NCBI GenBank assembly: GCA_964017235.1
Contig: OZ024940.1
Coordinates: 26,293,615-26,357,614, forward strand
From: Sabellastarte sp. h YS-2021
Taxonomy: Eukaryota > Annelida > Polychaeta > Sabellida > Sabellidae
Reading direction: 5' to 3'
DNA length: 64,000 bases
The notes beneath the pieces were generated by a model. It ran no database searches. It saw nothing but the letters and a program-made list of their open reading frames with translations, and had not been told where the DNA came from. Shown piece by piece: positions 1-62,440 of this stretch. Positions within the stretch are counted from its first letter, which is position 1; the number at the start of each line of letters is the position of its first letter. Both the position numbers and the translations under genes were made by a program.

Positions 1-3000
1 CTTGAGTGAGGGCCACACCCAAGGGATTACAAGACTTTATCACCTAGATGTAAGTCTGAGACCTATTCCATATTGTTTAGTGCCATCAACTTGATGTCCT
101 GTCCACATTTCAGCATTACATATGAATATTTGACATACTTATGGGGTGTGATAGGTAGTGGAGGGTACTTGACTGAGGGCCACACCCAAGGGATTACAAG
201 ACTTTAGCACCTAGATGTAAGTCTGAGACCTATTCTATATTGTTTAGTGCTAATAACTTGATGTCCTGTCCAAATTTCAGAATTACATATGTCATTTTGA
301 CACACTTATGGCGTGTTTTATTCACTGGAGGGTACTTGAGTGAGGGCCACACCCAAGAGATTACAAGATTTTATCACCTAGATGTAAGTCTGAGACCTAT
401 TCCATATTGTTTAGTGCTATCAACTTGATGTCCTGTCCAAATTTCAGAATTACATATGTCATTTTGACACACTTATGGCGTGTTTTATTCACTGGAGGGT
501 ACTTGAGTGAGGGCCACACCCAAGAGATTACAAGACTTTATCACCTAGATGTAAGTCTGAGACCTATTCCATATTGTTTAGTGCCATCAACTTGATGTCC
601 TGTCCACATTTCAGAATTACATATGTATGTTTGACATACTTATGGGGTGTGATAGGTAGTGGAGGGTACTTGACTGAGGGCCACACCCAAGGGATTACAA
701 GACTTTAGCACCTAGATGTAAGTCTGAGACCTATTCCATATTGTTTAGTGCTATCAACTTGATGTCCTGCCCAAATTTCAGAATTACATATGTCATTTTG
801 ACACACTTATGGCGTGTTTTATTCACTGGAGGGTACTTGAGTGAGGGCCACACCCAAGGGATTACAAGACTTTATCACCTAGATGTAAGTCTGAGACCTA
901 TTCCATACTGTTTAGTGCCATCAACTTGATGTCCTGTCCACATTTCAGCATTACATATGAATATTTGACATACTTATGGGGTGTGATAGGTAGTGGAGGG
1001 TACTTGAGTGAGGGCCACACCCAAGGGATTACAAGACTTTAGCACCTAGATGTAAGTCTGAGACCTATTCTATATTGTTTAGTGCTAATAACTTGATGTC
1101 CTGTCCAAATTTCAGAATTACATATGTCATTTTGACACACTTATGGCGTGTTTTATTCACTGGAGGGTACTTGAGTGAGGGCCACACCCAAGAGATTACA
1201 AGATTTTATCACCTAGATGTAAGTCTGAGACCTATTCCATATTGTTTAGTGCTATCAACTTGATGTCCTGTCCAAATTTCAGAATTACATATGTCATTTT
1301 GACACACTTATGGCGTGTTTTATTCACTGGAGGGTACTTGAGTGAGGGCCACACCCAAGAGATTACAAGACTTTATCACCTAGATGTAAGTCTGAGACCT
1401 ATTCCATATTGTTTAGTGCCATCAACTTGATGTCCTGTCCACATTTCAGAATTACATATGTATGTTTGACATACTTATGGGGTGTGATAGGTAGTGGAGG
1501 GTACTTGACTGAGGGCCACACCCAAGGGATTACAAGACTTTAGCACCTAGATGTAAGTCTGAGACCTATTCCATATTGTTTAGTGCTATCAACTTGATGT
1601 CCTGCCCAAATTTCAGAATTACATATGTCATTTTGACACACTTATGGCGTGTTTTATTCACTGGAGGGTACTTGAGTGAGGGCCACACCCAAGGGATTAC
1701 AAGACTTTATCACCTAGATGTAAGTCTGAGACCTATTCCATACTGTTTAGTGCCATCAACTTGATGTCCTGTCCACATTTCAGCATTACATATGAATATT
1801 TGACATACTTATGGGGTGTGATAGGTAGTGGAGGGTACTTGAGTGAGGGCCACACCCAAGGGATTACAAGACTTTAGCACCTAGATGTAAGTCTGAGACC
1901 TATTCTATATTGTTTAGTGCTAATAACTTGATGTCCTGTCCAAATTTCAGAATTACATATGTCATTTTGACACACTTATGGCGTGTTTTATTCACTGGAG
2001 GGTACTTGAGTGAGGGCCACACCCAAGAGATTACAAGATTTTATCACCTAGATGTAAGTCTGAGACCTATTCCATATTGTTTAGTGCTATCAACTTGATG
2101 TCCTGTCCAAATTTCAGAATTACATATGTCATTTTCACACACTTATGGTGTGTTTTATTCACTGGAGGGTACTTGAGTGAGGGCCACACCCAAGAGATTA
2201 CAAGACTTTATCACCTAGATGTAAGTCTGAGACCTATTCCATATTGTTTAGTGCCATCAACTTGATGTCCTGTCCACATTTCAGAATTACATATGTATGT
2301 TTGACATACTTATGGGGTGTGATAGGTAGTGGAGGGTACTTGACTGAGGGCCACACCCAAGGGATTACAAGACTTTAGCACCTAGATGTAAGTCTGAGAC
2401 CTATTCCATATTGTTTAGTGGTATCAACTTGATGTCCTGCCCAAATTTCAGAATTACATATGTCATTTTGACACACTTATGGCGTGTTTTATTCACTGGA
2501 GGGTACTTGAGTGAGGGCCACACCCAAGAGATTACAAGACTTTAGCACCTAGATGTACGTCTGAGACCTATTCCATATTGTTTAGTGTCATCAACTTGAT
2601 GTCCTGTCCAAATTTCAGAATTATATATGTATTTTTGACGTACTTATGGGGTGTTTAACACACTGCAGGGTACTTGAGTGAGGGCCACACCCAAGGGATT
2701 ACAAGACTTTATCACCTAGATGTAAGTCTGAGACCTATTCCATATTGTTTAGTGCCATCAACTTGATGTCCTGTCCACATTTCAGCATTACATATGAATA
2801 TTTGACATACTTATGGGGTGTGATAGGTAGTGGAGGGTACTTGACTGAGGGCCACACCCAAGGGATTACAAGACTTTAGCACCTAGATGTAAGTCTGAGA
2901 CCTATTCTATATTGTTTAGTGCTAATAACTTGATGTCCTGTCCAAATTTCAGAATTACATATGTCATTTTGACACACTTATGGCGTGTTTTATTCACTGG

Positions 3001-5318
3001 AGGGTACTTGAGTGAGGGCCACACCCAAGAGATTACAAGATTTTATCACCTAGATGTAAGTCTGAGACCTATTCCATATTGTTTAGTGCCATCAACTTGA
3101 TGTCCTGTCCACATTTCAGAATTACATATGTATGTTTGACATACTTATGGGGTGTGATAGGTAGTGGAGGGTACTTGACTGAGGGCCACACCCAAGGGAT
3201 TACAAGACTTTAGCACCTAGATGTAAGTCTGAGACCTATTCCATATTGTTTAGTGCTATCAACTTGATGTCCTGCCCAAATTTCAGAATTACATATGTCA
3301 TTTTGACACACTTATGGCGTGTTTTATTCACTGGAGGGTACTTGAGTGAGGGCCACACCCAAGGGATTACAAGACTTTATCACCTAGATGTAAGTCTGAG
3401 ACCTATTCCATACTGTTTAGTGCCATCAACTTGATGTCCTGTCCACATTTCAGCATTACATATGAATATTTGACATACTTATGGGGTGTGATAGGTAGTG
3501 GAGGGTACTTGAGTGAGGGCCACACCCAAGGGATTACAAGACTTTAGCACCTAGATGTAAGTCTGAGACCTATTCTATATTGTTTAGTGCTAATAACTTG
3601 ATGTCCTGTCCAAATTTCAGAATTACATATGTCATTTTGACACACTTATGGCGTGTTTTATTCACTGGAGGGTACTTGAGTGAGGGCCACACCCAAGAGA
3701 TTACAAGATTTTATCACCTAGATGTAAGTCTGAGACCTATTCCATATTGTTTAGTGCTATCAACTTGATGTCCTGTCCAAATTTCAGAATTACATATGTC
3801 ATTTTCACACACTTATGGTGTGTTTTATTCACTGGAGGGTACTTGAGTGAGGGCCACACCCAAGAGATTACAAGACTTTATCACCTAGATGTAAGTCTGA
3901 GACCTATTCCATATTGTTTAGTGCCATCAACTTGATGTCCTGTCCACATTTCAGAATTACATATGTATGTTTGACATACTTATGGGGTGTGATAGGTAGT
4001 GGAGGGTACTTGACTGAGGGCCACACCCAAGGGATTACAAGACTTTAGCACCTAGATGTAAGTCTGAGACCTATTCCATATTGTTTAGTGGTATCAACTT
4101 GATGTCCTGCCCAAATTTCAGAATTACATATGTCATTTTGACACACTTATGGCGTGTTTTATTCACTGGAGGGTACTTGAGTGAGGGCCACACCCAAGAG
4201 ATTACAAGACTTTAGCACCTAGATGTACGTCTGAGACCTATTCCATATTGTTTAGTGTCATCAACTTGATGTCCTGTCCAAATTTCAGAATTATATATGT
4301 ATTTTTGACGTACTTATGGGGTGTTTAACACACTGCAGGGTACTTGAGTGAGGGCCACACCCAAGGGATTACAAGACTTTATCACCTAGATGTAAGTCTG
4401 AGACCTATTCCATATTGTTTAGTGCCATCAACTTGATGTCCTGTCCACATTTCAGCATTACATATGAATATTTGACATACTTATGGGGTGTGATAGGTAG
4501 TGGAGGGTACTTGACTGAGGGCCACACCCAAGGGATTACAAGACTTTAGCACCTAGATGTAAGTCTGAGACCTATTCTATATTGTTTAGTGCTAATAACT
4601 TGATGTCCTGTCCAAATTTCAGAATTACATATGTCATTTTGACACACTTATGGCGTGTTTTATTCACTGGAGGGTACTTGAGTGAGGGCCACACCCAAGA
4701 GATTACAAGATTTTATCACCTAGATGTAAGTCTGAGACCTATTCCATATTGTTTAGTGCTATCAACTTGATGTCCTGTCCAAATTTCAGAATTACATATG
4801 TCATTTTGACACACTTATGGCGTGTTTTATTCACTGGAGGGTACTTGAGTGAGGGCCACACCCAAGAGATTACAAGACTTTATCACCTAGATGTAAGTCT
4901 GAGACCTATTCCATATTGTTTAGTGCCATCAACTTGATGTCCTGTCCACATTTCAGAATTACATATGTATGTTTGACATACTTATGGGGTGTGATAGGTA
5001 GTGGAGGGTACTTGACTGAGGGCCACACCCAAGGGATTACAAGACTTTAGCACCTAGATGTAAGTCTGAGACCTATTCCATATTGTTTAGTGCTATCAAC
5101 TTGATGTCCTGCCCAAATTTCAGAATTACATATGTCATTTTGACACACTTATGGCGTGTTTTATTCACTGGAGGGTACTTGAGTGAGGGCCACACCCAAG
5201 GGATTACAAGACTTTATCACCTAGATGTAAGTCTGAGACCTATTCCATATTGTTTAGTGTCATCAACTTGATGTCCTGTCCACATTTCAGAATTACATAT
5301 GTATGTTTGACATATGCC
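1..5318. repeat. 167-bp satellite array with higher-order repeats (HIBCH intron)
   Basis: About 32 tandem monomers of 167 bp; the array continues past the left edge. Taking monomer starts at 73+167n, variants recur in a fixed order. B has GCATTACATATGAATATT, A has GCTAATAACTTG, C and D differ at GTCATTTTGACAC versus GTATGTTTGACATAC, E has GTCCTGCCC, and F has TTTTTGACGTAC and AACACACTGCAGGG. The blocks read BACDE (73-907), BACDE (908-1742), BAC'DE'F (1743-2744), BADE (2745-3412), BAC'DE'F (3413-4414), BACDE (4415-5249), then a partial D-like unit. The basic higher-order unit is therefore 5 monomers (835 bp), with 6-mer and 4-mer derivatives. Copies of the same type are nearly identical, so the array is young or homogenised. 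It lies upstream of the first visible HIBCH exon and so within a HIBCH intron. Confidence 0.95.
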
Positions 5319-11900: not shown

Positions 11901-14900
11901 ATTGAAAATATAATTTGAGTTATGTATTCGGCGTCTGGGGATACACCATCTTCCTTGGAAGATATAAACAGAGTAGATTGATGTGCTGAAGTTCATATAA
12001 TAATGGGTAATTATGTTTTAAAAAATTCCCGATCAAAACCTGTGGCGTGAGTGATGACCTGTCTGGGGATATGTTGGCGCCGAGTTGGCCCAATCTAGTT
12101 TTAAAAATATTCGAGTTAGTCGTGGATATTTGCTCTTACCAACATACAGCAATAGTGAGGATAAGGTAAGGTATTTAACTTACAAAAAGTTAAATTACTA
12201 TAAAATGTTTACAATTTGTGCAGATATAACACAGAGGCTGATTTCTCTGGGTAATAAACTAGTGAAATTATAAAGCAGCTGTACCATATTAAAACGATAC
12301 AATGGTTCATGGAATGACTAGCCCTTTATGAGGTTAAAAATGTTTTAGTTGAAAAGTTTTGACAGAAACTTGGGTCAGAAATTTATATTTAACACTGAAA
12401 GCAGCAGTCAGTTTTAAAAAAATTAGTAACTAGGTTTTTATGACGTGCTATCAACCTTGCTATATCTATGGAATAATGGTTACTGAATGAGTGTCTGGTG
12501 TTACACCTTTTGCAATAAAGTCATAGAATAAATTCTAACATGACGGCGATGTAACAGAGTTTCTGATTGGCTAATTGAACAAAAATACCATACTCAGTAT
12601 TGTCACGAAGTTATGGCTGATAGTTCCGGGTTATCGTTAGCCTCCTAAAAACGTAAAATACAACACACAAAAAAAAAATGAAAATATTTTATTATGGACA
12701 TACCATGTTAGATACACCTTCGTGATCTAAACCCAGAATTGTGCTCTAAATTTGTGTAGAGCATCGATTTTTATGGTATATCCCTATAATGGAATGACCA
12801 AAAACAGCAATAACCAGACAAACTAGTATTCCATTTACAGTAACAGTCATTTGAAAAATCATTCAAATTTGAAAATAGCCTACAAGAAGTTCAAACCCTG
12901 ATCTTGAAAATGGATTTAATGTGGTAATAAAGGATGAGTATTGGGCTTCGTCTTTTATTCCGCCTGGAAGTTTGTGATTTATTCGCCGACACAATACTCA
13001 AACCAAGTTCTGTATTGTTATTATAAAGACCGGTGTGATTTTAACACCACAACATCTATTAATTCAGTCAATAAATCTAGTTGTTGTAGGGAGTATATCT
13101 TTACTGAATTACTGCCAATATTGTGGACTTACAATCAGATCCCTCGCATTATAATGTACGATAGCACTGATGGCGCAGCTACGAGTTTTCGTTCACTGCG
13201 CATTTTCTGTCTTCATAATAGTCCGCATTTCTTTGGCCTATTTCATGTCAGAAATACACTCCTATATCCATTGTACTAAGTTAGGGTAGCTGGATATACG
13301 GACAGATATATATCCTATATCCATTGTACTAAGGGAGGGGTAACTCGATATACAGACAGATATATATCCTATATCCATTGTACTAAGTTAGGGTAACTGG
13401 ATATACGGACAGATATATATCCTATATCCATTGTACTAAGTTAGGGTAACTCGATATACAGACAGATATATATCCTATATCCATTGTACTAAGGGAGGGT
13501 AACTGGATATACAGACAGATATTTATCCTATATCCATTGTACTAAGTTAGGCTAACTGGATATACAGACTTCTTCACAAGGGTATCATAATGTTCTTTCA
13601 GGTCTGTTCCCCGACGTTGGAGGCGGCTACTTCCTGCCCCGTTTGCAAGGCTTCCTGGGAACGTACCTCGCTCTGACGGGTTTCCGGATGAAAGGTCGAG
13701 ACGTGTTGAAAGCAGGGGTGGCCACGCATTTCATTGACAGCAGTAAGGTAAAGACGGGCTCAACAGATGCAAAAGCTGACTGGAACACCTTTGGGGGAAT
13801 ATGCATTGATGGGTTGGCCAGGGCATATACAATGTATTGTCATGACCAATTCATCTTTCTGTTTGGTTCAAGATGAATACGTGGTGGATGGCCACAAATA
13901 GTACTGCAGACCACTTGGTAACACACTCGCCCAGGAACATAGAGGACGTGGGTTCAATCCAATATACAGGCAGATACTTAGCGGCTCAGATGACCACTTA
14001 AAATGGCGATCCTCTGTCATTGGGTCCTTTCCCTAGTGGCAGGTTATAGAACCCCCAGGGTGTTGATAAATGGTTAACCCAGAGGCTGTGTGTTTCAGTG
14101 GGGGGAATGTCAGTCACTAGAGAGCTTGGGCAGTTGAGATTATTACTTTATCACCCATATGTAAGTCTGAGACCTATTCCGTATTGTTTAGTGCCATCAA
14201 CTTGATATCATGTCCAAATTTCAGCATTGCATATGTATTTTTGACATATTTATGGGGTGTGATAGGCAATGGAGGGTACATGAATATGGGCCTCACGCAA
14301 GGGATTACAAGACTTTAGCACCTAGATGTAAGTCTGAGACCTATTCCATATTGTTTAGTGTCATCAACTTGATGTACTGACTAACTTTTAGCATTACATA
14401 TGAATTTTTTACATACTTATGGAGTGTGATTGGCAATGGAGGGTACTTGAGTGAGGGCCACACCTAATGTATTACAAGACTTTATCACCCAGATGTAAGT
14501 CTGATACCTATTCCATGTTGTTTAGTGCCATTAACTTGATATACTGTCAAAATGTCAGCATTACATATCTATTTCTGACATACATATGGGGTGTGATGGA
14601 CAATGGAGGGTTCTTGGAGTGAGGGCCACACCCAAGGGATTTTAAGATTTTAGCACCCATATGACAGTCTGAGACCTATTCTATATTGTTTAGTTCTATC
14701 AATTTGATGTCCTGTCCAAATGTCAGCTTTACATATGAATTTTTGGACATACTTATGGGGTGTGGTAGTCAATGGAGGGTACTTTAGTATGGGCCACATG
14801 CAAGCGATTGGAAGACTTTAGCATCTAGATATAAGACTGAGACCTATTCCATATTGTTTAGTGTCATCAGCTTGATGTCCTGCCCAAATTTCAGCATTAC

Positions 14901-17900
14901 ATATGAATTTTTTACATATTCATGGGGTATGATAAGTAATCAACGGTACTTGAGTGAGGGCCACACCCAAGGGATTACAAGACTTTAGCACCCAGATGTA
15001 AGTCTGAGACCTATTCCATGTTATTTAGTGCCATCAACTTGATGTCCTGTCCAATTTTCATAATTACATATGTATTTTTGAAGTACTCACTCTGTGTGAT
15101 AAGCAATCGAGTGTACTTGGAGTGAGTTCCACACCCCAAGGAATTACAAGACTTTAAGACCCAGATGCAAGTCTGAGCCTTATTCCATGCTGTGTAGCAT
15201 CAGCTTGATGTCCTGTCCATATTTAAGAATTACAGGTGTATTTTTTGACGTACTTATGGGGTATTATAAGCAATGGAGGGTACTTGGAGTGAGGGCCACA
15301 CCCAAGGGATAACAAGACTTTAGCACCTAGATGTACATCTGAACAGGGTTGCCAGTGGTCAGGAAAAAGTCAGGGAAATTCAAGGTTAGGGAAAAGTCAG
15401 GGAATTTTGAAAACAGGCAGGGAAATTCAAGGTCAGGGAAAAGTCAGGGAAATTCAAGGTCAGGGAAAAGTCAGGGAATTTTGAAAAAAGGCAGGGAAAT
15501 TCAAGGTCAGGGAAAAGTCAGGGAAATTCAAGGTCAGGGAAAAGTCAGGGCATTTTGAAAAAAAAGCAGGGAAATTCAAGGTCAGGGAAAAGTCGGGGAA
15601 TTTTGAAAAAAGGCAGGGAAATTCAAGGTCAGGGAAAAGTCAGGGAATTTTGAAAAAAGGCAGGGAAATTCAAGGTTAGGGAAAAGTCAGGGAATTTTGA
15701 AAAAAGTCAGGGAAATTTGGGAAAACCCTTAGAAAGTCAGGGAAAATTGACTTTCTTGAGTCGTGCATGTAAGGTTAAGAGAAGCTATGATGCCACAAAT
15801 TGGAAACGTATGTGTATAGCAATGCAACAAAAATTGAAGTGCAATGTTTATCAACAAGATACATAAATACATAGATAAATACATAGATAAATACATAAAT
15901 AGCCCTGTACAATTTGAATCTGTTTGACCACATCTTTATGCAATTTTTTTATGTGCATGTAGAGCAAAGGAAGAAGTGATTAAATTTTGGGAATGTTCCG
16001 GACCATACTCTGACTACAAAAAAAAAATCCCTAATTTCAACTGTTCCATTTTCAGTTGTTTTGGATTTGTGGTTGACATTACTTCTAATGTGATGTAAAA
16101 AAACAGTATTTGGGTGAAATTACAATATGGGGAAAATTGACCGCCTTGGCGGAGATATGCACTCTGTGGAGTGCTCTCTACTTAGGATTATTGCTTTAAT
16201 TTTACAGATGGCCGACCTGGAGAGGGAGCTTTTATCTCTGTCCAAACCAGATGCCAAGCAAGTTCACTCGGTCATAGAACAGTTTCACCAGCAGGTAATT
16301 AAAAACTTGATGTAATAAAGCTTATTCGGAATGACCTTCCCGACAGTATATGCAATGCAACATCTGTTGCCTCCTTCAGGAAGAGTCTGAAAAGTCATCA
16401 GTTTGAAAAGGCCACCCCACCACCCCTGTGTCTTCTCCTGCATGTTCAATGAACCTATGACTATTCAATATGTTTATGTATCATTGCACCGTAAAGTCAA
16501 TGATGGAGATTAAGTGCTATAAAAGTCCATATTAGATTAGGTCAGATCATTTAACCATGCTGCTATAAAGCTTAATCTCTTTACAGGTACACAAAACAAA
16601 AAGTGTGTTTTGGGTTTAAATCTGTTTAATATCACCTTGCCACACATTGTACAGGTCACATGATCAAAAATAGTCAGTGGGGATGGAGGAAAGCAGCACA
16701 TACTAGTTGGTCAGCGGTCTGTACTGTAAACTACTGGGCAGTGCTTGAAGTTTTGGCCAGTTGTAAAATGTCTACCCAAAAAGTCACAATAACATCTTTA
16801 AAAATATATCAGCACGAGTTAATTAGTAGAACGATACTTTTATGGCTAAATAATTACTTGCAATTCAGATTTCAGTTTAAGGCAACACTATTTGACGTTT
16901 ACAATTAACAGCGCTGTTACCCACACAGAGTAAGGTTTTGTTCCAGTAATAGTAAATTTCATCACTAGGCTGAATAGGTAAGTCTTTAACTATTGTCTAA
17001 AACCCAGTGACCGAAGCCTGGATTCTGATGGCTTGAAGGGGTTTGTTTGATTCAGTAGGATCTCTTAAAATAGTGGGGAAATATAACTGTGGTAGAGAAA
17101 ATTAATTCATTAGATCAAATGATATTTTTCGGATAAAAGAAGCTCTGTGGTTCTGCAACCCAATATATTTTTGTGTTTAGTGTACACCATCCGAGGAAGC
17201 GCCATTTATCTTGGCTCCGCACATGGAGAGCATCAACCGTCTGTTCAGTGCCGACACCTTGGAGGAAATAGTGGGGGGTCTGCTGAAAGATGGCTCGGAG
17301 TGGGCCAAGAAACAGGCAGACACTATCAGCAAAATGTCGCCCACCTCACTCAAGGTTTGTAAATCCATACAACAATGAACAGTGCAGTATATAAAATAAA
17401 TAATGTAATGACATTACTTGGGAAAATGATATCTCATTTTATAGCGACAACCCTTACCATTTCCTCACATATAGCTATTGGTTGGAGCCATCCAAATCAA
17501 TGGCTAGTCCAGAGATGTGAATATAAGATAGTCAGGAGGGTGAATTACAGTAGTCCATCCTCCCGCCAGTATGTTACATGACCATGTTGTTTACTTCATT
17601 ATTTTTGTCGTGAGACAAAAAAACGGGCGAACACCATTGGCAAAATCTGGGCTATGCCTTATTGAAACTTACCTTTGGATAACAGAGGATCTGTAATATC
17701 AAATGCAAAGAATATACCTTTAAAATTAAGTATTACCGGTAATCCATATTTTTCCTTTATGTTCTCTTTCATAAGCTGTCAAAATTTATTAGTGAGTACA
17801 AAAAGGTAACTAATTATGAGCTCAGAAGAAAGACTAAGCAGAGTACTAAACAATTGGGTATTGAGACTAGCACAATATTTGAAAGTTCCAACACATCACG

Positions 17901-46900: not shown

Positions 46901-49900
46901 ATACAAATCCATGCTCTACACAAATTTAGAGCACAAAATCTGGGTTTAGATCACGGAGGCGTAGCCTGAGTGGTCTAAACCCAGAATTTGTGCTCTAAAT
47001 TTTCGTAGAGCAGGGATTTTTGTGGTATATCCCTATAATATATATGCTTTTTGAAACTGTTTCAGGAGCTGAGTTCAGGAGACATGTTTCTGACCAAGCT
47101 GAAGTTACAGCAGACCGCCCAGACGTTCCGTGACATGTACGGCAGCAGTCCCATGAATCTGGTGCGGGTCCTCACCAACTGCCTCGCCACCGAGCACAAG
47201 CTGGTGAACCACTTTGTCAGGAACAAGGGCATGGTAAGTTGTGGTATCGGAATATTCTGGTGATGGTATCAAGTAGCAATCTATATATCTCGATATCAGA
47301 CCATATTTTTGCCTTCCGTATCGATCAACATTGAAATATCGGGGCATGAGATGTTTTCCTATGGCGACACAGTTAAGGGAGTGTGAGACAGTGGGATATA
47401 GACTTAGGTATCCTAACTTAGTCAAGGCTTATCTGACTTAAGTTTGAGACTTTAAATTCTTTAGGGAATCCATCCCAGGAAGTATGTCTATTGAAAGTTT
47501 CAATTAACGATGTTTATTTTTTTAATATTTTTTTTTTGTAGGATACAGGTGTGAGTGCTCAGGCCACTGCACACAAACTGATTCAGGAAGAATTCACAGT
47601 CTTACAGTCACAGACACAGGTAAAAAAAGTGTAATATAGACACAGGTTTAAAAAAAGTGTGATATAGACACAGGTAAGAGAGTGATATAGACACAGGTAA
47701 ATGTGTGATATAGAGACAGGTAATAGAGTGATATAGACACAGGTAATAGAGTGATATAGACACAGGTAAAACGTGTGATATAGACACAGGTAATAGAGTG
47801 ATATAGACACAGGTAAAAAGTGTGATATAGACACAGGTAATAGAGTGATATAGACACAGGTAAAAAGTGTGATATAGACACAGGTAAAAAGTGTGATATA
47901 GACACAGGTAAAAAGTGTGATATAGACACAGGTAATAGAGTGTGATATAGACACAGGTAATAGAGTGTGATATAGACACAGGTAAAAGTGTGATATAGAC
48001 ACAGGTAATAGAGAGTGATATAGGCACAGGTAAAAAGTGTGATATAGACACAGGTAATAGAGTGTGATATAGACACAGATAAAGGAGTGTTATATAGACC
48101 TAGGCCGGAGAGTGTGATATAGACACAGGCAAAAAGTGAGATATAGACAGGTAAAAAGTGTGTGATAGACTTAGTAAAAAGTCTCATATAGTCACAGGTA
48201 AGAAGTCCAATGCAAGCCACAGGTAAAAAATCTGATATAAACAAAGTTTAAGAAAAAAACTCTGAATCAGATACAGACACAGGTACAAAAGTCTAAAATA
48301 GACATATACAGAGATAAGATGTCTGTCACAGTTGTAGACATAGATACAAAGTCCAGTATAGTCATAGACATGGATAAGAAGTCTACTGTAGTCCTAGACA
48401 CAGCTTTTAAAGTTTCATGGGGCCAAAAAAGTTGTCATAGACATTGGAAACCTATCTAGATTAGTCATAGACTCCTGAAAAAATAACACATTTCAGTAAT
48501 TGTGAAAACAGTCCTCAAGAAAGGACCTATCCACCTCCCTTTAGGAGGCAGTCATTTGAATTTCAGTGTAGAAGATACGAAGTGTTTTCAAGATATAATG
48601 TACTTAGCAATTTGTATAGTCTTTGGCTCAGTGACATAATTAACTGTGTTAGAACTACCTGACCTTTACCTCGTGAATATTTCACAAAGCCATTTACCGT
48701 CTTGTCTGATCTCTGTCCTAGGAGTCAGAGGAGAAGTTGAGAGGGATGCTACACGAACAGGAATCCTTTATCCTGTTACACCAAGAGTACACAAAGATCA
48801 ACGGTAAGTACTGCTGAGTAGTAATATATGGTCCACTAAACGGCCCTTAAAGACTGTGCAGGTATTGTTTACACAGAGCACGTTTGCTTGTGGTGGGCAG
48901 GCCAGTATACCTGTATCTCAGAAACCATAAAATGTAGAGACTTTCGTACTTGAATGGGACATTCTAGCACTTTGCACTTGCATAATGATCTGTGCAGATT
49001 GAACACCTCAAGGAGGTGCATATTTTTGTCAAGTTTTATTCATAAGGATTAGTATATGGTAGTGTTGTTAACAGTTTACCGGTATGCGGAATATCGTTTC
49101 GTTTTGGTAGAAAAAACGAAATCCGCAAAGAATATTTGGGAACCGGTTTTTGAAGATGTTATTATTTTAGGCTTTCTAATGGCTGATACTTCATCAAAAC
49201 GACAAAACATATATATATTTTGTAAAATATGTGACATTTTTACCTTATATTGAGGAAAAATTATTTTTGCATACATAAAAACATCTCGCGAAAGCCACTT
49301 CCATTTACAAGTTATCGCTCATGTACACCCGCGAATAATTTTTCAATGCACAGAACAAGCGTACGAAATACCGGATTTCATTTTGTTTCAAAGCCCCGGT
49401 AACCGGTTTTGATTTCTGTAATCGATGCCACCACTAGTATATGGAAGTATATGGTTCAGATTTTCTGGAGCAGAAATATCGAAAATGTAAGAGATAAATA
49501 GACGCATTCAGTTAACGCTTAAGTAGAGGAATGATTAATTGTTGAGGAGAATAGGATTTATATATTGTGTAGGGGAGAGGCAGACAACTCCAATAGTATC
49601 AAGTGTGAGGTCTTTACCTCAAATGGCTACCCTGCTAGTCACAAAAATGCCGTTTTCTTGAGGGAATGTATACAGTTGAATTGATATGACTAAAAGTCCC
49701 AATGTCCACAGGATTTGGTTCTAGTTATGACTGACTTCCACTGACAGGTATCTTGATAACTTATATTTTTCCTCTAGTTTAGATCAGTAACCTTCAAGTT
49801 TCAGACATAATGTTTTAAAAATCTTTTCATGTTACTCTAATTTCGATCAGTAGCCCTCAATCCCAGACATGTCTTTTTGAGAAAAAGAAATCCATTTTTT

Positions 49901-52900
49901 TTTTCATTTTTGTAGCTCAGATCAGTAACCTTCAATCTCAGCCAAATGGCCAAATACGACTGCAGAACGAACAAAGGCTACAGGCTGAAAAGACAAAAAC
50001 TGAAGCCGAACTCAGAAGAATGGCCCAAAGTCTACTGGACATGAGACTGGTAAGTGTAACGGCACAGCTGATTGGCTAATAAAGTGGTTGTTGGACTGAT
50101 TGGACCGATAAGATTAAAGCTTACAGTAGGGGGAAAATGTGTAAAATATGAAAGATTGTTACTAATTCTTTCAGCTATAAGATTAAGACACATTTGTCAT
50201 GCAAAATGTAGAAAACGTTTAAACATTTTACTCAAGTGTTTATGTTTGCGTGATTCAAGGTGTCTTTGAAATTTGTTATATTAAACTACGGTCTAGTTAT
50301 AATATCAGAAATGCCTCAAGTAAGAAAAGTGCAATCATATGATCATTTATTTTAGCAAAACTCAAATTACGTAGTTGAATTTGTTTTTATTTGAATTTTT
50401 ATTTTTTGTTTGTTTCTATTTTTAGTCCAAACAACTGTTTCACTTTTCTTTGAATGGAGTTTTTACCTGAATCACCTTGTTCGTGGGTAACCAATGCATC
50501 CTTGCTGCCTTACGTACCATATTGGGGAATACAATAATAATTCTAATAAACTGTTGTGTATCTTAGAAACTGGCCAAAAGTCACAAGGAGATCTTCGAGA
50601 GCCTGTCGAGACTTCAGAGCCGTATCCTTGACGACCAGCTGATCTACTGGAAGCGCCAGCAGCAGCTGGCGGGAAACGGGGCGCCATTCGATGCCAGTCT
50701 GGAGACTCTACAGCTCTGGTAGGTACTGGTGTCGGAAATGGCAGCCCCCCCGCCTCTCCAATTATCTGGGTCGAATGATCAAGCCAGTATCAAATATTAA
50801 CCTATTTTGTTACATCTTTTTTCATTAAAGGGCTTTTTCCCTTATGAAGGATATGTTAGTCTGTGAAGAATTTTGGTGCTTTCAGAATTTCTGATTTTAG
50901 TGTCCACTGAACATAACCATTTCCTGTAAACAATTTTGTCAGTCTCAAATCTACCAATCTATCAACCGTGATCCTGACAACCGTTTTCAGGTGCGAGTCC
51001 CTGGCTGAGCTGATCTGGACCAACCGCCAACAGATCCGTAAGGTTGAGATGCAGCGAGCTCAGCTTCCCATAGACATCCCGCCGGGAGAGCAGGACCTGA
51101 TGCCTTTCCTCAACACTACTATCACAGGGCTGCTCAGCTCCCTGGTCACCAGGTAGGTCCCTTCAGGGGGCGAGAGTTTTATCGATTTCGAATCCAGTGA
51201 CTAATCCGGTGAAGAATGAAACCATATTTATTCTTTAATTCCTGAGAACAGCAAACTAGATAGTGAAATCAAACAAAGTGAATATATGCAAGATTGAGTG
51301 TAACTTAATTTAAATGCTACTCCGTAAAACTGCTGCAGTAGTGATCTTGAAAAATGTGGTATCAGTTGCATTTTATTGTTATTTTTCAGCACATTTATAA
51401 TCGAGAAACAACCACCCCAGGTGTTGAAGAAGGATGCAAAATTCACAGCCACCATCCGCCTACTGGTTGGAGGGAGGCTGAATGTGCACATGAACCCACC
51501 CACTGTTAAAGCAACCATCATCAGGTGAGATTAGATAGGAAACAGGTTCATCGGTACGAGATGTTTGATAAGAGACAAGTTAATCAGTAGGTGAGATTTG
51601 ATAGGAGACAGGTTAATTGGTAGGTAAGATTTTATAGGAGACAGGTTAATCAGTATGTGAGATTTGATAGGAGACAGGTTAATCAGTATGTGAGATTTGA
51701 TAGGAGACAGGTTAATCAGAAGGTGAGATTTGATAGGAGACAGGTTAATCAGTATGTATGGTTTGAATGACACAGGTTAATCAGTAGGTGAGATTTGATA
51801 GGAGACAGGTTAATTGGTAGGTAAGATTTTATAGGAGACAGGTTAATTGTCAGGTGAGATTTGATAGGAGACAGGTTAATCAGTAGGTGAGATTTGATAG
51901 GAGACAGGCAATTCTTGGGTTGGATTTGATAAGAAAATGGTAAATCCTGGGGTGAAACTTGATTGGAAACATTTTAAATTTATCATGGGATTTGACAGAG
52001 GAACTGTTAAATCATTGTGAGATTTCACAGGTAAAAGCTAAACTATTGGGGGAAGTTTGATAGGAAACAGGTTGGTCATATGGTGAGATTGTAAAGTTGG
52101 ACCATCTGGTAGAATTTCCTTGGAAAATGGTTCATTATTAGTTTGGACGTATAGGCTGAAGGTAAAATTAGGTGAAATTTGATGGGAAACAGTTATATCA
52201 GGTGAGATTTGGTAAGAAAGAGGTTAATCATACAGAGCAATTTCTCGGCCAAAACATTAATGATCAAAATGGATATTTTAGGCTCCCTTAGTGTTTTGTT
52301 CACCGTCTGTTTCTTTTTTCTTCCACACAGTGAAGAACAAGCAAAAGCGATCCTGAAAAATGACAAAAACGCCAAGAACGAGTCCAGCGGCGATATCGTG
52401 AACAGCCAGGGCCAGATGGAGTATCACCAGTCCAACGGACAGCTCGCCATCATGTTTAGGAACATGGTAAAAGTCATAAATATATTAATCTATAAAATGA
52501 ATCTTGGTCCATGAAAGTAATGAGATTTAAACCCCCAGAGTTTTGTTTAGGAACGTGGAAAACCTCGGAAGATTTATGTTCAGGGACATGGTCAGTCTGC
52601 GAGTTATGTTCAGGAACATGGTAAACGTAAGAGTATATAACTCCAGGCCCACCCCAAATCGACTAGGCCACCGACAGGAAGGGAAACTCATGAAATAAAA
52701 ACATGGCAGTTTCTTGTCAACGAAATTTCTGCTAAAATCCCCAAATGTACAAAAAATATGGGATAACATAGTGCAGTTTCTTTGAATTTAAGTATTTTTC
52801 CAATATTTTAAGCTTTCCTTCAAGTATATGTGTTGGCAGTTGAAATGGCAGTTGTAAAGTATCATCACAGGGTCCTCTTAATACCAAGATACTGGGGCCC

Positions 52901-55900
52901 ACCCCTACCTTTAACAGTGTGTCTTATTTCTTATAAGTATTTGCACAGAATGTTTATTTTTATTCCGTTTAGCAACTGAAGCGTATTCGGCGGGCGGAGA
53001 AAAAGGGCAACGAGACAGTGACAGAGGAAAAGTTCTCCATTTTGTTCCAGAGTCAGTTTACAGTGGGTGGCGGCGAGCTGGTCTTCCAAGTCTGGGTGAG
53101 TTTCCAAATGAGTGAAAAGAATGTGAGAAATGGCGTGAAACAAGCGTGAATGTGTTATAGCATTATGGAAAGAGATGAATTCATCCTAATTAAGAAGTGG
53201 AAAGCTCGTCTTCCAAGGTCTGCTTAATTGTGAAAAGAACATGAAACAAGTGTGAACTAAGTGTGAATATGTGGTCATGATATTTAGAGAGAGACAAATT
53301 CACACACAGGAATAGCGGTGGCGACCTCATCTGTGGACTCGTAGAGTGTGAAATGGGTAAGAAGGAGTATGCAACTAGTGTGAATTTGGTGAGAACGAGT
53401 GTGAAACTAGGGTGAATTTGGTGAGAATGGGTGTGAAACTAGTGTGAATTTGGTGAGAATGAGTGTGAAACTAGTGTGAATTTGTGGTCATAGTTTTCTT
53501 GAGAGTGATAAATTTATTCACAGTGAAAGGTGGCAATCTCATGTGTAGATCTAGTAGAGTGTGAAATAGGTGTGAAAATGTGTGAAACTAGCGTGAATAT
53601 GTGGTCACAGTATTCTTGACACAGTGGGAGGTGATGGACCTGTCTTCTAAGTGTGGATGAAAAAAGGTGAAACTACGTGAAACAAGTGTGGAAATGTGTG
53701 CAACTGGTGTGAAAGTTTGTGAAACATAAATGAAAGTTTGTGAAACCGCTGTGAAAGTGTTTTATGAAAAGGTGTGAAAATATGTGAGAGAGAACATGAG
53801 ATGGAGACTGAAACCATGTTTAGTATGAACACAAGAGCTCTTGGAGAGCGCTTACCTCCGCCGAGGCATGTAATAATAAGTAAATGGGAAAATCCGGATC
53901 TTTGATATTTTTCGGTATCCAGACCTAGATCCAGATCAGTGTCAAATTTTAATCGGATCTAAGCTAGATCAAGACCCATCTTCTCCTTTTTAATGAAGAT
54001 CCAAACCGTAATATTTACATAATTCTGCTAGCAAAAAAAAATAAATAAATAACGGACAAACGGTCATGAATTTAAAACCTGCATGGCGGAAGTTCTAACA
54101 GAAGTCTACTATATCCATATATATATATATAAGAAAAGCCAGTTATGCTGCTCTTCATTTTGTATATTTCCATTACAGACGTTGTCCTTGCCGGTTGTGG
54201 TGACCGTGCATGGCAACCAGGAGTGCAACGCCTTAGCAACCATCCTCTGGGACAATGCCTTTGCCGAACCGGTGAGTACAATTTTGACGACCTTAATTTA
54301 TGAAGTTTGGTAGTTACTTGGTGATGTCAGGGGCTTTACAGGTGCAGTATCTTCACCCCCCACCCACATCCCCCACCAACAAGAAAAGTATCTTTCTTGC
54401 GGACAAAGGATTGACACAATATGATATTTGTGAAGTGTTTTTTCCATTTTGTGTTAGGGCAAAAACCAATCTTTGGGAAGAATTTTTATGTCCTATGTTT
54501 GGGCAAAACATGAGATGTCTGAGCTTTTTATACATTCACAAACTGTTACACATTGTTGGGGCTTTTGATAACAGTGAATATAATGATTGTTGTAAACAGA
54601 AGACTTGTATAACTGTGAAACTTTAGTCAAGAGTAGAGAATTGAATGTTTGGATATTATAAAATTTGGATAATCGAGGTTCTACTATATTTAATACATGA
54701 ACAATATCCAGATGGTTTTGTTGCAAGCCAGTGCCAAATGACTTAATAAAGTAAAAGGTTTTACATCCAGTTGAACAGCCAGGTTGATATAGGAACGGAC
54801 CCTCACTGTTGCCACTTGTGGTAGAAGAACCCACACATAGAGAGCCCACTGGGCCCCCAAAGACCTGCGAATGGTGACCAACTGGTTTGTGCTGCTTTCC
54901 TCCCATCTCCTGCAACCAATCTTCGTCTAATCTAATGTAATGATATGGACTTTTATAGCACTTAATCTCCATCATGGATAGACTCTAAGGCACAACTACA
55001 CATAAACATATTGAATACCTGTAGCTCCAATGAACATTGCCAGAGATGATACAAAAGAAGACACAGGGGTGGCAGGGAGATTAGGGGGGGATAGGCTTTT
55101 GTAAACAGGTGACGTTTGAGCTAATAACTAGGAGACAATAGATGTTGCATTGCTTGAATTGTCCGGAAGGTCATTCCAAACTTTAGGAGCATCGAAGGCG
55201 AAGCTACTTTCAGAGTGTTATGTGATCCCAATGCTGTGTGTTTAAAGCCTCACTTGACCTGAGTCAGTCAGTCACCAGTTACTCAGTTTTCTGCCGTGTT
55301 CCCGCAGGGCCGTATCCCGTTTCAAGTCCCGGAGAAGGTGTCCTGGACTCAGTTGGCTCAGGCACTCAATACCAAATTTGCATCGGCGTGCGGCCGCGGA
55401 CTCAACCAAGAAAACCTGAACTATCTGGCCTTTAAAATCTTCGGTGAGCAAAAAAAACATTTGTTGAAATAAAGAAAGAAATACAAGAATCCAATGTTGT
55501 CCTGTTGAAATTTATGCCTTTTGTTTACAAGTGTGTGCTTGTTCAGTCTCCATTAGTAATATTACTTTTATTATATTTTATTTAATTTCTGTAATGGGTG
55601 ATAATAGGAGACTCTTCAGATTGACAATATTGAGGTGAAATGTTGAATCAAACAGTAAACAGCCCTTATCACCTAAGGCTTATTTGAAAGCACTTTATGT
55701 ACTTTTTGAATTTGATCATTTTTGAGCCTGTACTTTATGAATTTGATCATTTTTGAGCCTGTACTTTATGAATTTGATCATTTTTGAGCCTGTACTTTAT
55801 GAATTTGATCATTTTTCAGCCTGTACTTTATGAATTTGATCATTTTTGAGCCTGTACTTTATGAATTTGATCATTTTTCAGCCTGTACTTGATGAATTTG

Positions 55901-58900
55901 ATCATTTTTGAGCCTGTACTTGATGAATTTGATCATTTTTGAGCGTGACCTTGATACAGTATGTTCTTACTTCTTGTAGGTCAAACAGATGATTTGACCC
56001 ATCCTGTCTCTTGGACACAGTTCAACAGGGTAAGCGTTTTAATCTGTAAACAGTGGTTAGCATGTAACTGGTAGATATCTGTAGATATTTTCTTTTCCAG
56101 GGCTGCTTAAAGTAAAACTTGATAATGTAGAAATGTAATATTTCTCAGACGTATAATACAAATTAGTAACAAATGAATACTTTATTTGGATATAATCCAT
56201 GTTCCAGCGTTTGTAAATGTACGTAATTGCGAGGGATTCTGTACTCTCCCTTTTGTACAAAATTTGAAGGTGAAAATAACCCATACTGCCACTAACTTGC
56301 ATAGGGGGGACCTGAGATTCTAGGATTGAAATATGCCACCCCCTCAATCACACTGTATTTCTGAAATATTCCATGCTCCCCATCCACATAAAATTGTATT
56401 TAAAAATGAAATACTCCCTACCCCTATGTATGTTAAATGTGAAATATTCTATGCCCTGGCAATATTTATATTGAAGAGTGAAATAATGCATGCTTTGATT
56501 GAAATAGTCTATGCATCGACTATGTATGTAAAAGTGAAATAATGCATGACCCTTTGGTTTCTGTAGGAGCCGTTACCGGGGAGGAACTTCACCTTCTGGG
56601 AGTGGTTTTACACCATCATGAAACTCACTAAGGACTGGCTTCAGGGACCCTGGAAGGAAAAGTAAGTTTTACCTCTGCCAAGGAGGTATTAAATTCATGA
56701 CCGTTGATTTGTCGGTTCGTCTGTTTCCGAGGAGGATTTTGCCCAAATACTACTGGTTGATTCTTCATGCAAAAAAAAGTGAGACAATGGGTCTCTGCCC
56801 AACTTAGATCCCATTATATTTGGAGAGTGATTCAGGTCACTGCCTGGATACAAAAATATATAATAAAATCCAGAATTTCCCCATTTACTTACTGTTGGGC
56901 TACTTTTTGAAAACTCAATCATGCCGAGACGGAGATGTGCACTCTTGTTTTGTTTTTTTTGTTACAATGTTTAAACCAATCCAATCACTGTTTCATGGCA
57001 CGTGATCCCAGTAAGAACAGAGACTAAGGTACGTAAAACAGTTACTCTCTACGGAAAGGCAAGATTTATTTGTTCATGCAGCGATAGTTACTCCGGATTT
57101 AAGCAATCGTTTTTACAGCATCTTATCACTGCACCACTTGAAGTTGATAATTGCCTGTGGGGTGCCTGAGAGTTTTCAGTGCACAACCTTGACCGACTAC
57201 CCCGCACTGCTGTCCTCCATCTATTTGACTGCTGGATATGGTCCAACCTATACTGTACGTTGACATGATACTCTACCTTTCAATAAGTCGAGTCGGCCAA
57301 GTTTCAAGGCAAATACATTACGGTAGACGGTGCATTAATATATGTAGGGAGACAAGATTTTGGTTTGGTTAATCCAGAGATTCGGATAATAGAAGGCCGG
57401 ATAATCGAGGTTCTACTTTATCACAGAAAATCTGGTAAGCACTGGAGAAATTTTGATTGTAATCATGGCATTGAAAAACCTGGTTCATAGTACCACCATT
57501 TGTATGTATACTATGTAATGGTATCCCCAAAATGGTAAGAATGATAGCTTTGCCTGCGTAGCCTGTGTTATTTGGCGCAAGTCTTGTTTTTAACCAAAAT
57601 TTTCTCTTATTTTCAGCTTAATCTTTGGTGTTATTACAATGTTTCAAGAACCTTTCACTCCAGTCCAAACACCTGTAAAAAATGCATTATCTGCCACTGT
57701 GGCCTAGCGGGTAACACACTTGTCTAGGAACTCAGATGACATGGGTTCCAACCCAGGTACAGGCGGATACATGGTGGCTCGGATGACCACTTAAAATGGC
57801 GGTCCTCTGTCATTAGGTCCTATCCCCAGTGGCAGGCTAAAGAACCTCAAGGACGTTGATAAATGTTCATCCTTGAGCCTCTGTCTTTTAGTTAGGGAAA
57901 TGTGAGTTACTTGTCAGTTGGGACTGTACCTGGGCAGTCGGATGGGTTAAATAGTGCTCTGAGTCCTGTAGTATTCGGAGATATTGCGTATAAAAATAAA
58001 TACACACAAATTCCTGATACTTTTTTATCTGTGAGCTGACACTGTGCCCGCTTGTGGACATTAGCATCTTGTATTACAAGTATCTCATCTTTGTCTTTGT
58101 TTTTCTTCCCCTTCCAGTCTAATTGTGGGTTTTATCAGCAAACAGAAGGCACAGGACTGGCTGATGATGCGCCCAAAGGGAAACTTTCTCATGCGTTTCA
58201 GTGATTCGGGTGTCGGGGGCATCACCATCGCCTGGGTGGCGGATGACGCAGTCAAGCCAGGTTGGTTAATGCTATTTTTTTTTCTGACGGAGCGAAAAGT
58301 ATTTGATACTCAAGACCTTTTGTAAGCGGGGGTTCAGTTTCATTAAACGTGACTTAGACTTAAAGTTAAGACTTTTTATCTGAAACCAAAGACTAAGTCT
58401 GTGGTCTTAGTCGATTTAACAGTGCAGTTCTAAACCTTGGCTTAGTCTTGGGCTTAAACTTAAGTCCACCTGGGAGTGGGCTTAACTTTTTGCAAACAAA
58501 GAATTTCATATGGCCTCTATAAATTTTTGTCTACGTCAATGTTTTAAATGGCTAATAATATTCTGAACACCTCAGGAAAAAAATGATAAAAACAAAGCAA
58601 ATATGTCACCTGTGGTACGTATATTTGGAGTAGAAATGAGGGGGTCACATGACCCAGAAAACCACGGTGGTTATTGGATGAATTAGTCCCAAGCTTGGTC
58701 TCCGCTAAGTCACCCTTTGTGAACTCCATGTAAGCTCAAGACCTTGCTAAGACCAAAGGCTCAGATTTAAGCCCCCGACCTGATCTAGACCAAAGTCGAA
58801 GACTCTCTCTGAAGGTCGCCCCTGGACTTAAGTTGACCCTGTAATATTGTCCTCTCTTGTTCCCAGGGGAGAGGCAGGTGTGGAACCTGGAGCCGTTTCT

Positions 58901-61816: not shown

Positions 61817-61844
61817 AACTGGAGTGTTTAACTTTGTCTGCTGT

Positions 61845-62440
61845 ATAAAGTGAAAGTTGGCTAAAACTGTAACCAAATCCTGTGGATATTGGAGGTTCTA
61901 GTTATACAGAGTCTAATGTATGTAGTGGAAGTTAGCTATAACTAGAACCAAATCCTGTGGATATTGGAGGTTCTAGTTATACAGAGTCTAATGTATGTAG
62001 TGGAAGTTAGCCATAACTAGAACCAAATCCTGTGGATATTGGAGGTTCTAGTTATACAGAGTCTAATGTATGTAGTGGAAGTTAGCTATAACTAGAACCA
62101 AATCCTGTGGATATTGGAGGTTCTAGTTATACAGAGTCTAATGTATGTAGTGGAAGTTAGCCATAACTAGAACCAAATCCTGTGGATATTGGAGGTTCTA
62201 GTTATACAGAGTCTACTATATACAGTGGAAGTTAGCCATAACTAGAACCAAATCCTGTGGATGTTGGAGGTTCTAGTTACACTGAGTCTACTGTATTTTG
62301 TGTAAGCCATAACTAGAACCAAATTCTGTGGATGTTGGAGGTTCTAGTTATACAGAGTCTACTGTGTATAGAGGAAGTTGGCCATAACTAGAATCAAATC
62401 CTGTGAATATCGGATGTTTTAGTTGTACATACTCTGTGTA
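61845..62440 (+). repeat. 75-bp hairpin-forming tandem array after STAT stop
   Basis: Eight units. GGTTCTAGTTAT occurs at 61894, 61969, 62044, 62119, 62194, 62269 (ending TAC) and 62340, with a diverged eighth near 62415. In each central unit ATAACTAGAACC, 19 bases, GGTTCTAGTTAT forms a perfect 12-bp stem. The first and last units are diverged. Confidence 0.95.

Follow-up and report, generated by a model that had tools for sequence, protein, structure and literature searches.

Why should several introns of one gene carry tandem copies of the edges of their own exons? The question is raised by a STAT gene on the + strand of a 64,000-nucleotide stretch of the Sabellastarte sp. h YS-2021 genome, here called the window (G000:C21:26293615-26357614, in an assembly of 1.786 Gb and 647 contigs), in which introns 4, 5, 9, 10 and 11 hold such copies. 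The STAT arrays are real and striking and are of an already described kind, and we consider it likely that they are minisatellites of the type named mirages in amphioxus, left by a pervasive local tandem duplication that is purged in exons and tolerated across exon-intron junctions. The identity of the gene rests on the Pfam STAT domains of its product, for which STAT5A and STAT5B are the nearest solved structures (STAT5A, E 1.9e-120); in the gene model the exons from 47066 to 55443 share one open frame, and an exon may be missing between 55443 and 56567. The gene seems to be single-copy, as no paralogue was found for comparison and all three STAT_bind matches that the genome gives belong to exons of the present gene. 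Upstream of it lies a partial HIBCH gene, three of whose three searched exons match 3-hydroxyisobutyryl-CoA hydrolase and ECH_2 models, and the one exon compared with the PDB led to 3-hydroxyisobutyryl-CoA hydrolase as well. The edge comparison below left out STAT exons past 59022 and any HIBCH exon lying upstream of 13602.

For every edge of 18 introns (14 in STAT and 4 in HIBCH, thus 36 edges), a query of 40 bases, 20 exonic and 20 intronic, was aligned to the remainder of its own intron, and the score was compared with those of 200 dinucleotide shuffles. Copies were found for 5 of the 28 STAT edges, namely four donors, those of exon 4 (score 40), exon 9 (38), exon 10 (36) and exon 11 (28), and one acceptor, that of exon 6 (36), and for each of them 0 of 200 shuffles scored as high. 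The other 23 STAT edges failed the shuffle test, the next best donor, at 58260, reaching a score of 21 with 5 of 200 shuffles as high. None of the eight HIBCH edges passed in the four introns placed: the top score of 20 was matched by 50 of 200 shuffles, and the fewest shuffles as high for any HIBCH edge were 28 of 200. A sequence-only reading of the window had named exactly these five STAT introns and had called chance similarity unlikely, and on both counts the shuffles agree; HIBCH, which it had taken for one more case, is not confirmed in the four introns placed.

Two of the arrays are long and adjoin the junction. Exon 4 (47542..47619, + strand, as are all features of this gene) ends in CAGACACAG; these bases and gtaaaa are the opening unit of an array in intron 4 (47612..48420) that consists of about 32 units of approximately 24 bp (AGACACAG followed by GTAAAAAGTGTGATAT). 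Tandem Repeats Finder (TRF) reported 26.2 copies of 24 bp for 47612-48243, and a wrap-around alignment over 47609-48420 gave 88.6% identity overall, the units agreeing with the consensus at 0.87-1.0 up to 48044 and at 0.75-0.92 deeper in the intron. Similarly, the array of intron 9 (51514..52245) is seeded by the last bases of exon 9 (51390..51524), ATCATCAG, followed by gtgagat, and about 22 units of approximately 33 bp (GACAGGTTAATCAGTAGGTGAGATTTGATAGGA) fill most of the 806-bp intron; here TRF reported 33 bp x 11.7 at 51523-51908, the wrap-around alignment gave 81% overall, and the units range from 0.84 to 1.0 up to 51870 (with one at 0.76) and from 0.62 to 0.90 beyond. The arrays reach about 800 bp (intron 4) and about 720 bp (intron 9) from the junction, with far limits set by hand.

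The copies in the other three introns that exceed the shuffle maximum, two in intron 5, one in intron 10 and three in intron 11, are all degenerate. Intron 5 holds the 3' splice site together with 29-33 bases from the start of exon 6 (49916..50049), in two copies at 49761-49812 and 49824-49869 of 82% and 77% identity. The end of exon 10 (52331..52466; ATGTTTAGGAACATG followed by gtaaaa) recurs in intron 10 within 52545..52643, where the copy at 52590-52643 (81%, including 30 exon bases) is the one above the shuffle maximum and two further copies, at about 52545 and 52575, were recognised by eye. The end of exon 11 (52973..53095; GAGCTGGTCTTCCAAGTCTGG followed by gtgagt) is found in intron 11 as three old copies of 67-73% identity (53203-53255, 53517-53593 and 53621-53696), which extend 20-39 bases into the exon and are set among internal GTGTGAAA-type repeats (TRF: 32 bp x 4.4 at 53345-53484).

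At all five source edges the exonic part belongs to sequence shared with STAT5 (TQ, ATIIS, FRNM, ELVFQV and AQ..L in the STAT5 alignment), and the exon is therefore the origin of the units. A different origin would be satellite or transposon units, dispersed in the genome, that resemble exon edges by chance and were inserted into introns. The genome does hold dispersed and tandem repeats, and intron 10 itself carries, at 52648-52912 (mostly 52650-52870), an ordinary repeat of about 220 bp, dispersed in the genome and found at 72-80% identity in at least 39 further places, with 40 of 1597 candidates scored. All 41 scored matches that introns 10-11 have elsewhere fall within this segment, outside the edge copies. 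Searching the genome with the intron 4 array found no place besides its own, and the intron 9 array hit only itself and the stretch that continues it, in DNA searches of the 1.79-Gb genome that skip very common words, so that rarity of the units is not strictly proven. The same unit at unrelated places, as expected if an introner or another dispersed element were the source, was thus not found for these two arrays; moreover, each array fits its own exon edge, and in the sample of other genes described below 4 of 5566 pairings of an edge with a non-adjacent intron gave a match. We regard an origin from dispersed units as highly improbable. That the arrays are an artefact of assembly is barely credible: nothing in its favour was seen in the one assembled haplotype considered, and the differences between copies and their gradual decay are hardly expected from assembly collapse or stutter.

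The sequence-only reading knew of no described system of this kind. The mirages of amphioxus fit it: they are minisatellite-like tandem duplications of exon-intron boundaries, both 5' and 3', found in Adh3, in the globins BflGb6 and BflGb9 and also in PGBD5 and troponin C, with units from 10-72 bp (Adh3) to 150-160 bp (globins), with AG/GT signals in many of the copies, and with a homogenised cluster accompanied by older boundary units (PMC3087553, PMC3902484). The STAT arrays share with them the boundary-spanning tandem duplication, the involvement of both boundaries (in STAT the copies concern four donors and one acceptor, and in the other genes they occur at 7 of 97 donors and 5 of 98 acceptors), a unit length within about 10-160 bp (24 bp in intron 4, 33 bp in intron 9) and the retention of AG/GT in many copies (in intron 4, A in 31, G in 31, G in 27 and T in 30 of 32 units). 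They differ in standing in a 1.79-Gb genome and in several introns of one gene, and in that their frequency can be stated for other genes, from a sample of 195 edges; in amphioxus, according to those reports, splicing and length polymorphism were studied, whereas the present arrays are known from one assembled sequence. The amphioxus genome is smaller than 1.79 Gb. In the open-licence literature searched, the term mirage for such arrays was met for amphioxus only, which does not prove its absence elsewhere.

Other cases resemble the STAT arrays in part. In human IFI6 (G1P3) a minisatellite reportedly supplies multiple splice donor sites, several of which are said to be used in the transcript; the splice-donor minisatellite is alike, and it is said to concern one gene. 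Intron gain with tandem duplication around splice signals has been described for the potato RdRp gene and in fission yeast, the latter with a 24-bp exonic unit, multiply repeated (PMC4974935); in these cases duplication makes a new intron, whereas here introns hold edge copies and the downstream exon carries no repeat of the unit. Intron gain by the AGGT route of Rogers was considered for intron 4 and rejected, since the acceptor edge of exon 5 has no match (score 18, 96 of 200 shuffles as high) and each unit is mostly intron sequence. In Drosophila, novel introns are attributed to regional tandem duplications in which the copied coding sequence contains a proto-splice site (PMC2891723); that case concerns new intron positions, whereas the present arrays lie inside introns.

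The sequence-only reading had further proposed that duplication breakpoints favour splice junctions. For rates in other genes we used exons of the same genome matching myosin head (PF00063), TCP-1 (PF00118) and kinesin (PF00225). Rows left out before the analysis were 15 of 78 for PF00063, which form one tandem cluster on C14, 1 of 126 for PF00225 (C313:16726-16995) and none of 55 for PF00118; 90 loci gave 79 regions of 266 kb, containing 113 of the 243 retained exon matches, and 31 of these 113 had an internal stop and were kept. Limits on splice score and flank left 97 donors and 98 acceptors, 195 edges in total. The splice weight matrices were taken from general knowledge and recovered every donor and every acceptor (17 of each) of the STAT and HIBCH exons placed by eye, a check that is partly circular because the placing used the same consensus. 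In the main test the query ran from -40 to +40, the match had to span the point, the target was 600 bp and the score had to be at least 22; this score was made the main threshold after the results at all five thresholds were known, and the complexity filter was replaced after a result had been seen, the earlier version having lost long matches (for instance the donors on C3 and C18). Intronic and flanking points were counted in two ways, as any-copy and as first-copy points, and the latter were chosen as the fair comparator for an edge. The sample is limited to three housekeeping-type families, points inside one region are not independent, and not all interior points are proven intronic.

At score 22, copies were found at 12 of 195 edges (6.2%, 95% interval 3.2-10.5%), of which some are possibly parts of larger exon duplications. 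The controls gave 4 of 5566 for non-adjacent pairs (p 3e-15 against the edges) and 6 of 1570 for exon interior (p 2e-8). Edge-copy arrays are thus widespread in this genome. The claim that introns lengthen by local tandem duplication that includes the exon edge, leaving predicted decoy splice sites, is upheld, the copies being far beyond chance and recurring outside STAT; likewise the expectation that an edge matches its own intron more often than other edges do holds in the three families sampled. Clear cases exist outside STAT. At a myosin donor (G000:C3:27301982) at least eight copies of the segment from -47 to +60 around the junction lie within 1.3 kb at 84-89% identity, a kinesin donor (C6:35758268) has four copies and another myosin donor (C18:77970943) three, and acceptor cases are found in a myosin gene (C7:107671748) and a TCP-1 gene (C2:36027109). 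Among eight cases inspected with a longer query, one (C5:94512836) was without a copy. Separately, myosin-head exon matches at G000:C14:20123497-20142816 stand in tandem units of about 2,352 bp, in at least eight copies. A muscle-myosin exon of this genome came out marginally closest to two molluscan PDB entries, and comparison of two other myosin exons was uninformative.

The comparison that bears on breakpoint preference is with the rest of the intron. Any-copy points numbered 494 of 6054 and first-copy points 244 of 6054 (4.0%, bootstrap 3.1-5.0%), so that the edges (6.2%) exceeded the first-copy rate with an odds ratio of 1.56 and p 0.14, an excess that is not clear and that has an upper limit of about 2.6-fold. 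The earlier filter gave 9 of 195 edges against 198 of 6054 first-copy points (p 0.30) and 360 of 6054 any-copy points at the same score, and under both filters the edge rate lies between the lower first-copy rate and the higher any-copy rate. At scores of 18, 20, 24 and 28 copies were present at 19, 14, 11 and 7 of 195 edges, against 342, 271, 236 and 208 of 6054 first-copy points; compared with any-copy points the edges were lower across thresholds (p 0.08 to 0.81). A shorter query with relaxed splice thresholds gave 8 (any-copy) and 6 (first-copy) of 195 edges and, correspondingly, 431 and 225 of 6272 points. A bias of donors over acceptors was not found in the main test (7/97 against 5/98, p 0.57) or in the short one (4/53 against 1/80, p 0.08). 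In this small sample, then, a preference for junctions does not come out clearly from sequence comparison, and a mild one, up to about 2.6-fold, is compatible with the counts. These controls separate a junction hotspot from duplication everywhere with exons purged.

We infer the following course, in which both the duplication mechanism and its near-neutrality are parts of the explanation. A local tandem duplication would happen to cross an exon-intron junction; it would be tolerated because the exon is unbroken and the original splice site still stands beside it; and the intronic duplicate would then grow through more rounds of unequal exchange or slippage, with slow decay of its copies. Throughout the genome, local duplications would arise all along introns, with selection clearing the exonic ones and, much less, those that cross a junction. 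The presence of several arrays in STAT would be due to chance or to a region rich in tandem repeats; tandem-repeat cover is 15.5% in the STAT introns and 7.6% in the sampled regions of other genes.

Several observations weigh against this explanation. The edge rate was above that of first-copy points whichever of the five thresholds was used, with odds ratios of 1.05-1.80 and p 0.027 at the laxest. STAT, with 5 of 28 edges, lies above the other genes (12/195, p 0.046; in the short test 6/133, p 0.024), and 4 of 14 STAT donors have copies, where the first-copy rate of interior points is 4.6% (p 0.003); all of these are upper views because STAT was picked for showing the pattern. Furthermore, intron 4 has 21 further GT sites that equal or exceed the true donor in a generic matrix, and it is hard to assume that these are harmless.

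The first of these points would suit splice junctions, and donors above all, that are true hotspots of tandem duplication, for instance through R-loops, nicks or slippage at AG/GT. The four STAT donors point the same way, as do the donors of the other genes (7/97 against 115/3027 first-copy points, p 0.10). However, of the five thresholds the one at score 18 with p 0.027 is also the noisiest, with 31 of 5566 non-adjacent pairs matching, and at scores of 20, 22, 24 and 28 the p values are 0.080, 0.14, 0.26 and 0.84; acceptors do not differ from their comparator (5/98 against 129/3027, p 0.61), edges in the shorter-query test are not above interior points, and under strict splice thresholds neither donors (4/53 against 81/1748, p 0.31) nor acceptors (1/80 against 86/2677, p 0.52) stand out. 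We think it unlikely that junctions are hotspots of this kind. Equally doubtful is its fuller form, in which junctions, donors above all, would be mild hotspots (about 1.5- to 2.6-fold over intron points) and introns would grow outward from exons like a conveyor. If that were true, the intact edge would seed fresh copies beside it while older ones decayed inward, as the gradient in introns 4 and 9 would suggest, and the spliceosome would have to choose the first among about twenty donors that score as well or better. A general rule that copies grow older away from the exon, or a gradient of their age, was considered and rejected: the gradient is present in introns 4 and 9 and absent in the C3 myosin array, where identity to the junction is an even 84-89% across the eight copies recovered.

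The predicted decoys raise another alternative, that the arrays are retained for function, as a ladder of decoy donors leading to premature-stop isoforms that tune STAT output. The true donor of intron 4 is rather weak, and three of its 21 decoys score 5 or more; the number of GT sites at or above the true donor is two in intron 9, 0-2 in the other 12 STAT introns and 0-4 in the four HIBCH introns. Along with the count in intron 4, the position of the first in-frame stop past the donor would favour such a ladder, at intron base 12 (intron 4), 1 (intron 9), 45 (intron 10) and 51 (intron 11). However, a stop occurs within 51 intron bases at all 14 donors tested, with or without an array, and similar copies are found in myosin, kinesin and chaperonin genes. 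Moreover, conservation of GT in the intron 4 units (57 of 64 bases) is no better than that of the unit as a whole (88.6%), AG being kept in 62 of 64. A retained function of this kind appears to us quite improbable.

With local duplication tolerated across junctions as the preferred explanation, mirages, which in the amphioxus reports consulted are known from single genes, are now seen in STAT, motor and chaperonin genes of another and larger genome. Were they general, such arrays would amount to a large set of natural experiments on donor choice by the spliceosome where the candidates are alike, and they might be a common source of intron length and a raw material for new introns or exons.

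The window contains further tandem repeats. Beyond the last placed STAT exon, at 61842-62429, lies an array of a 75-bp unit in 7.9 copies, with an inverted relative in intron 5 (49685-49746); its matches at 57399 and 19474 are shorter and less strong. A unit of approximately 167 bp forms a 31.8-copy array at the start of the window (1-5312), and a similar-looking, more diverged array of 7.2 copies is located in the HIBCH region (14145-15342).

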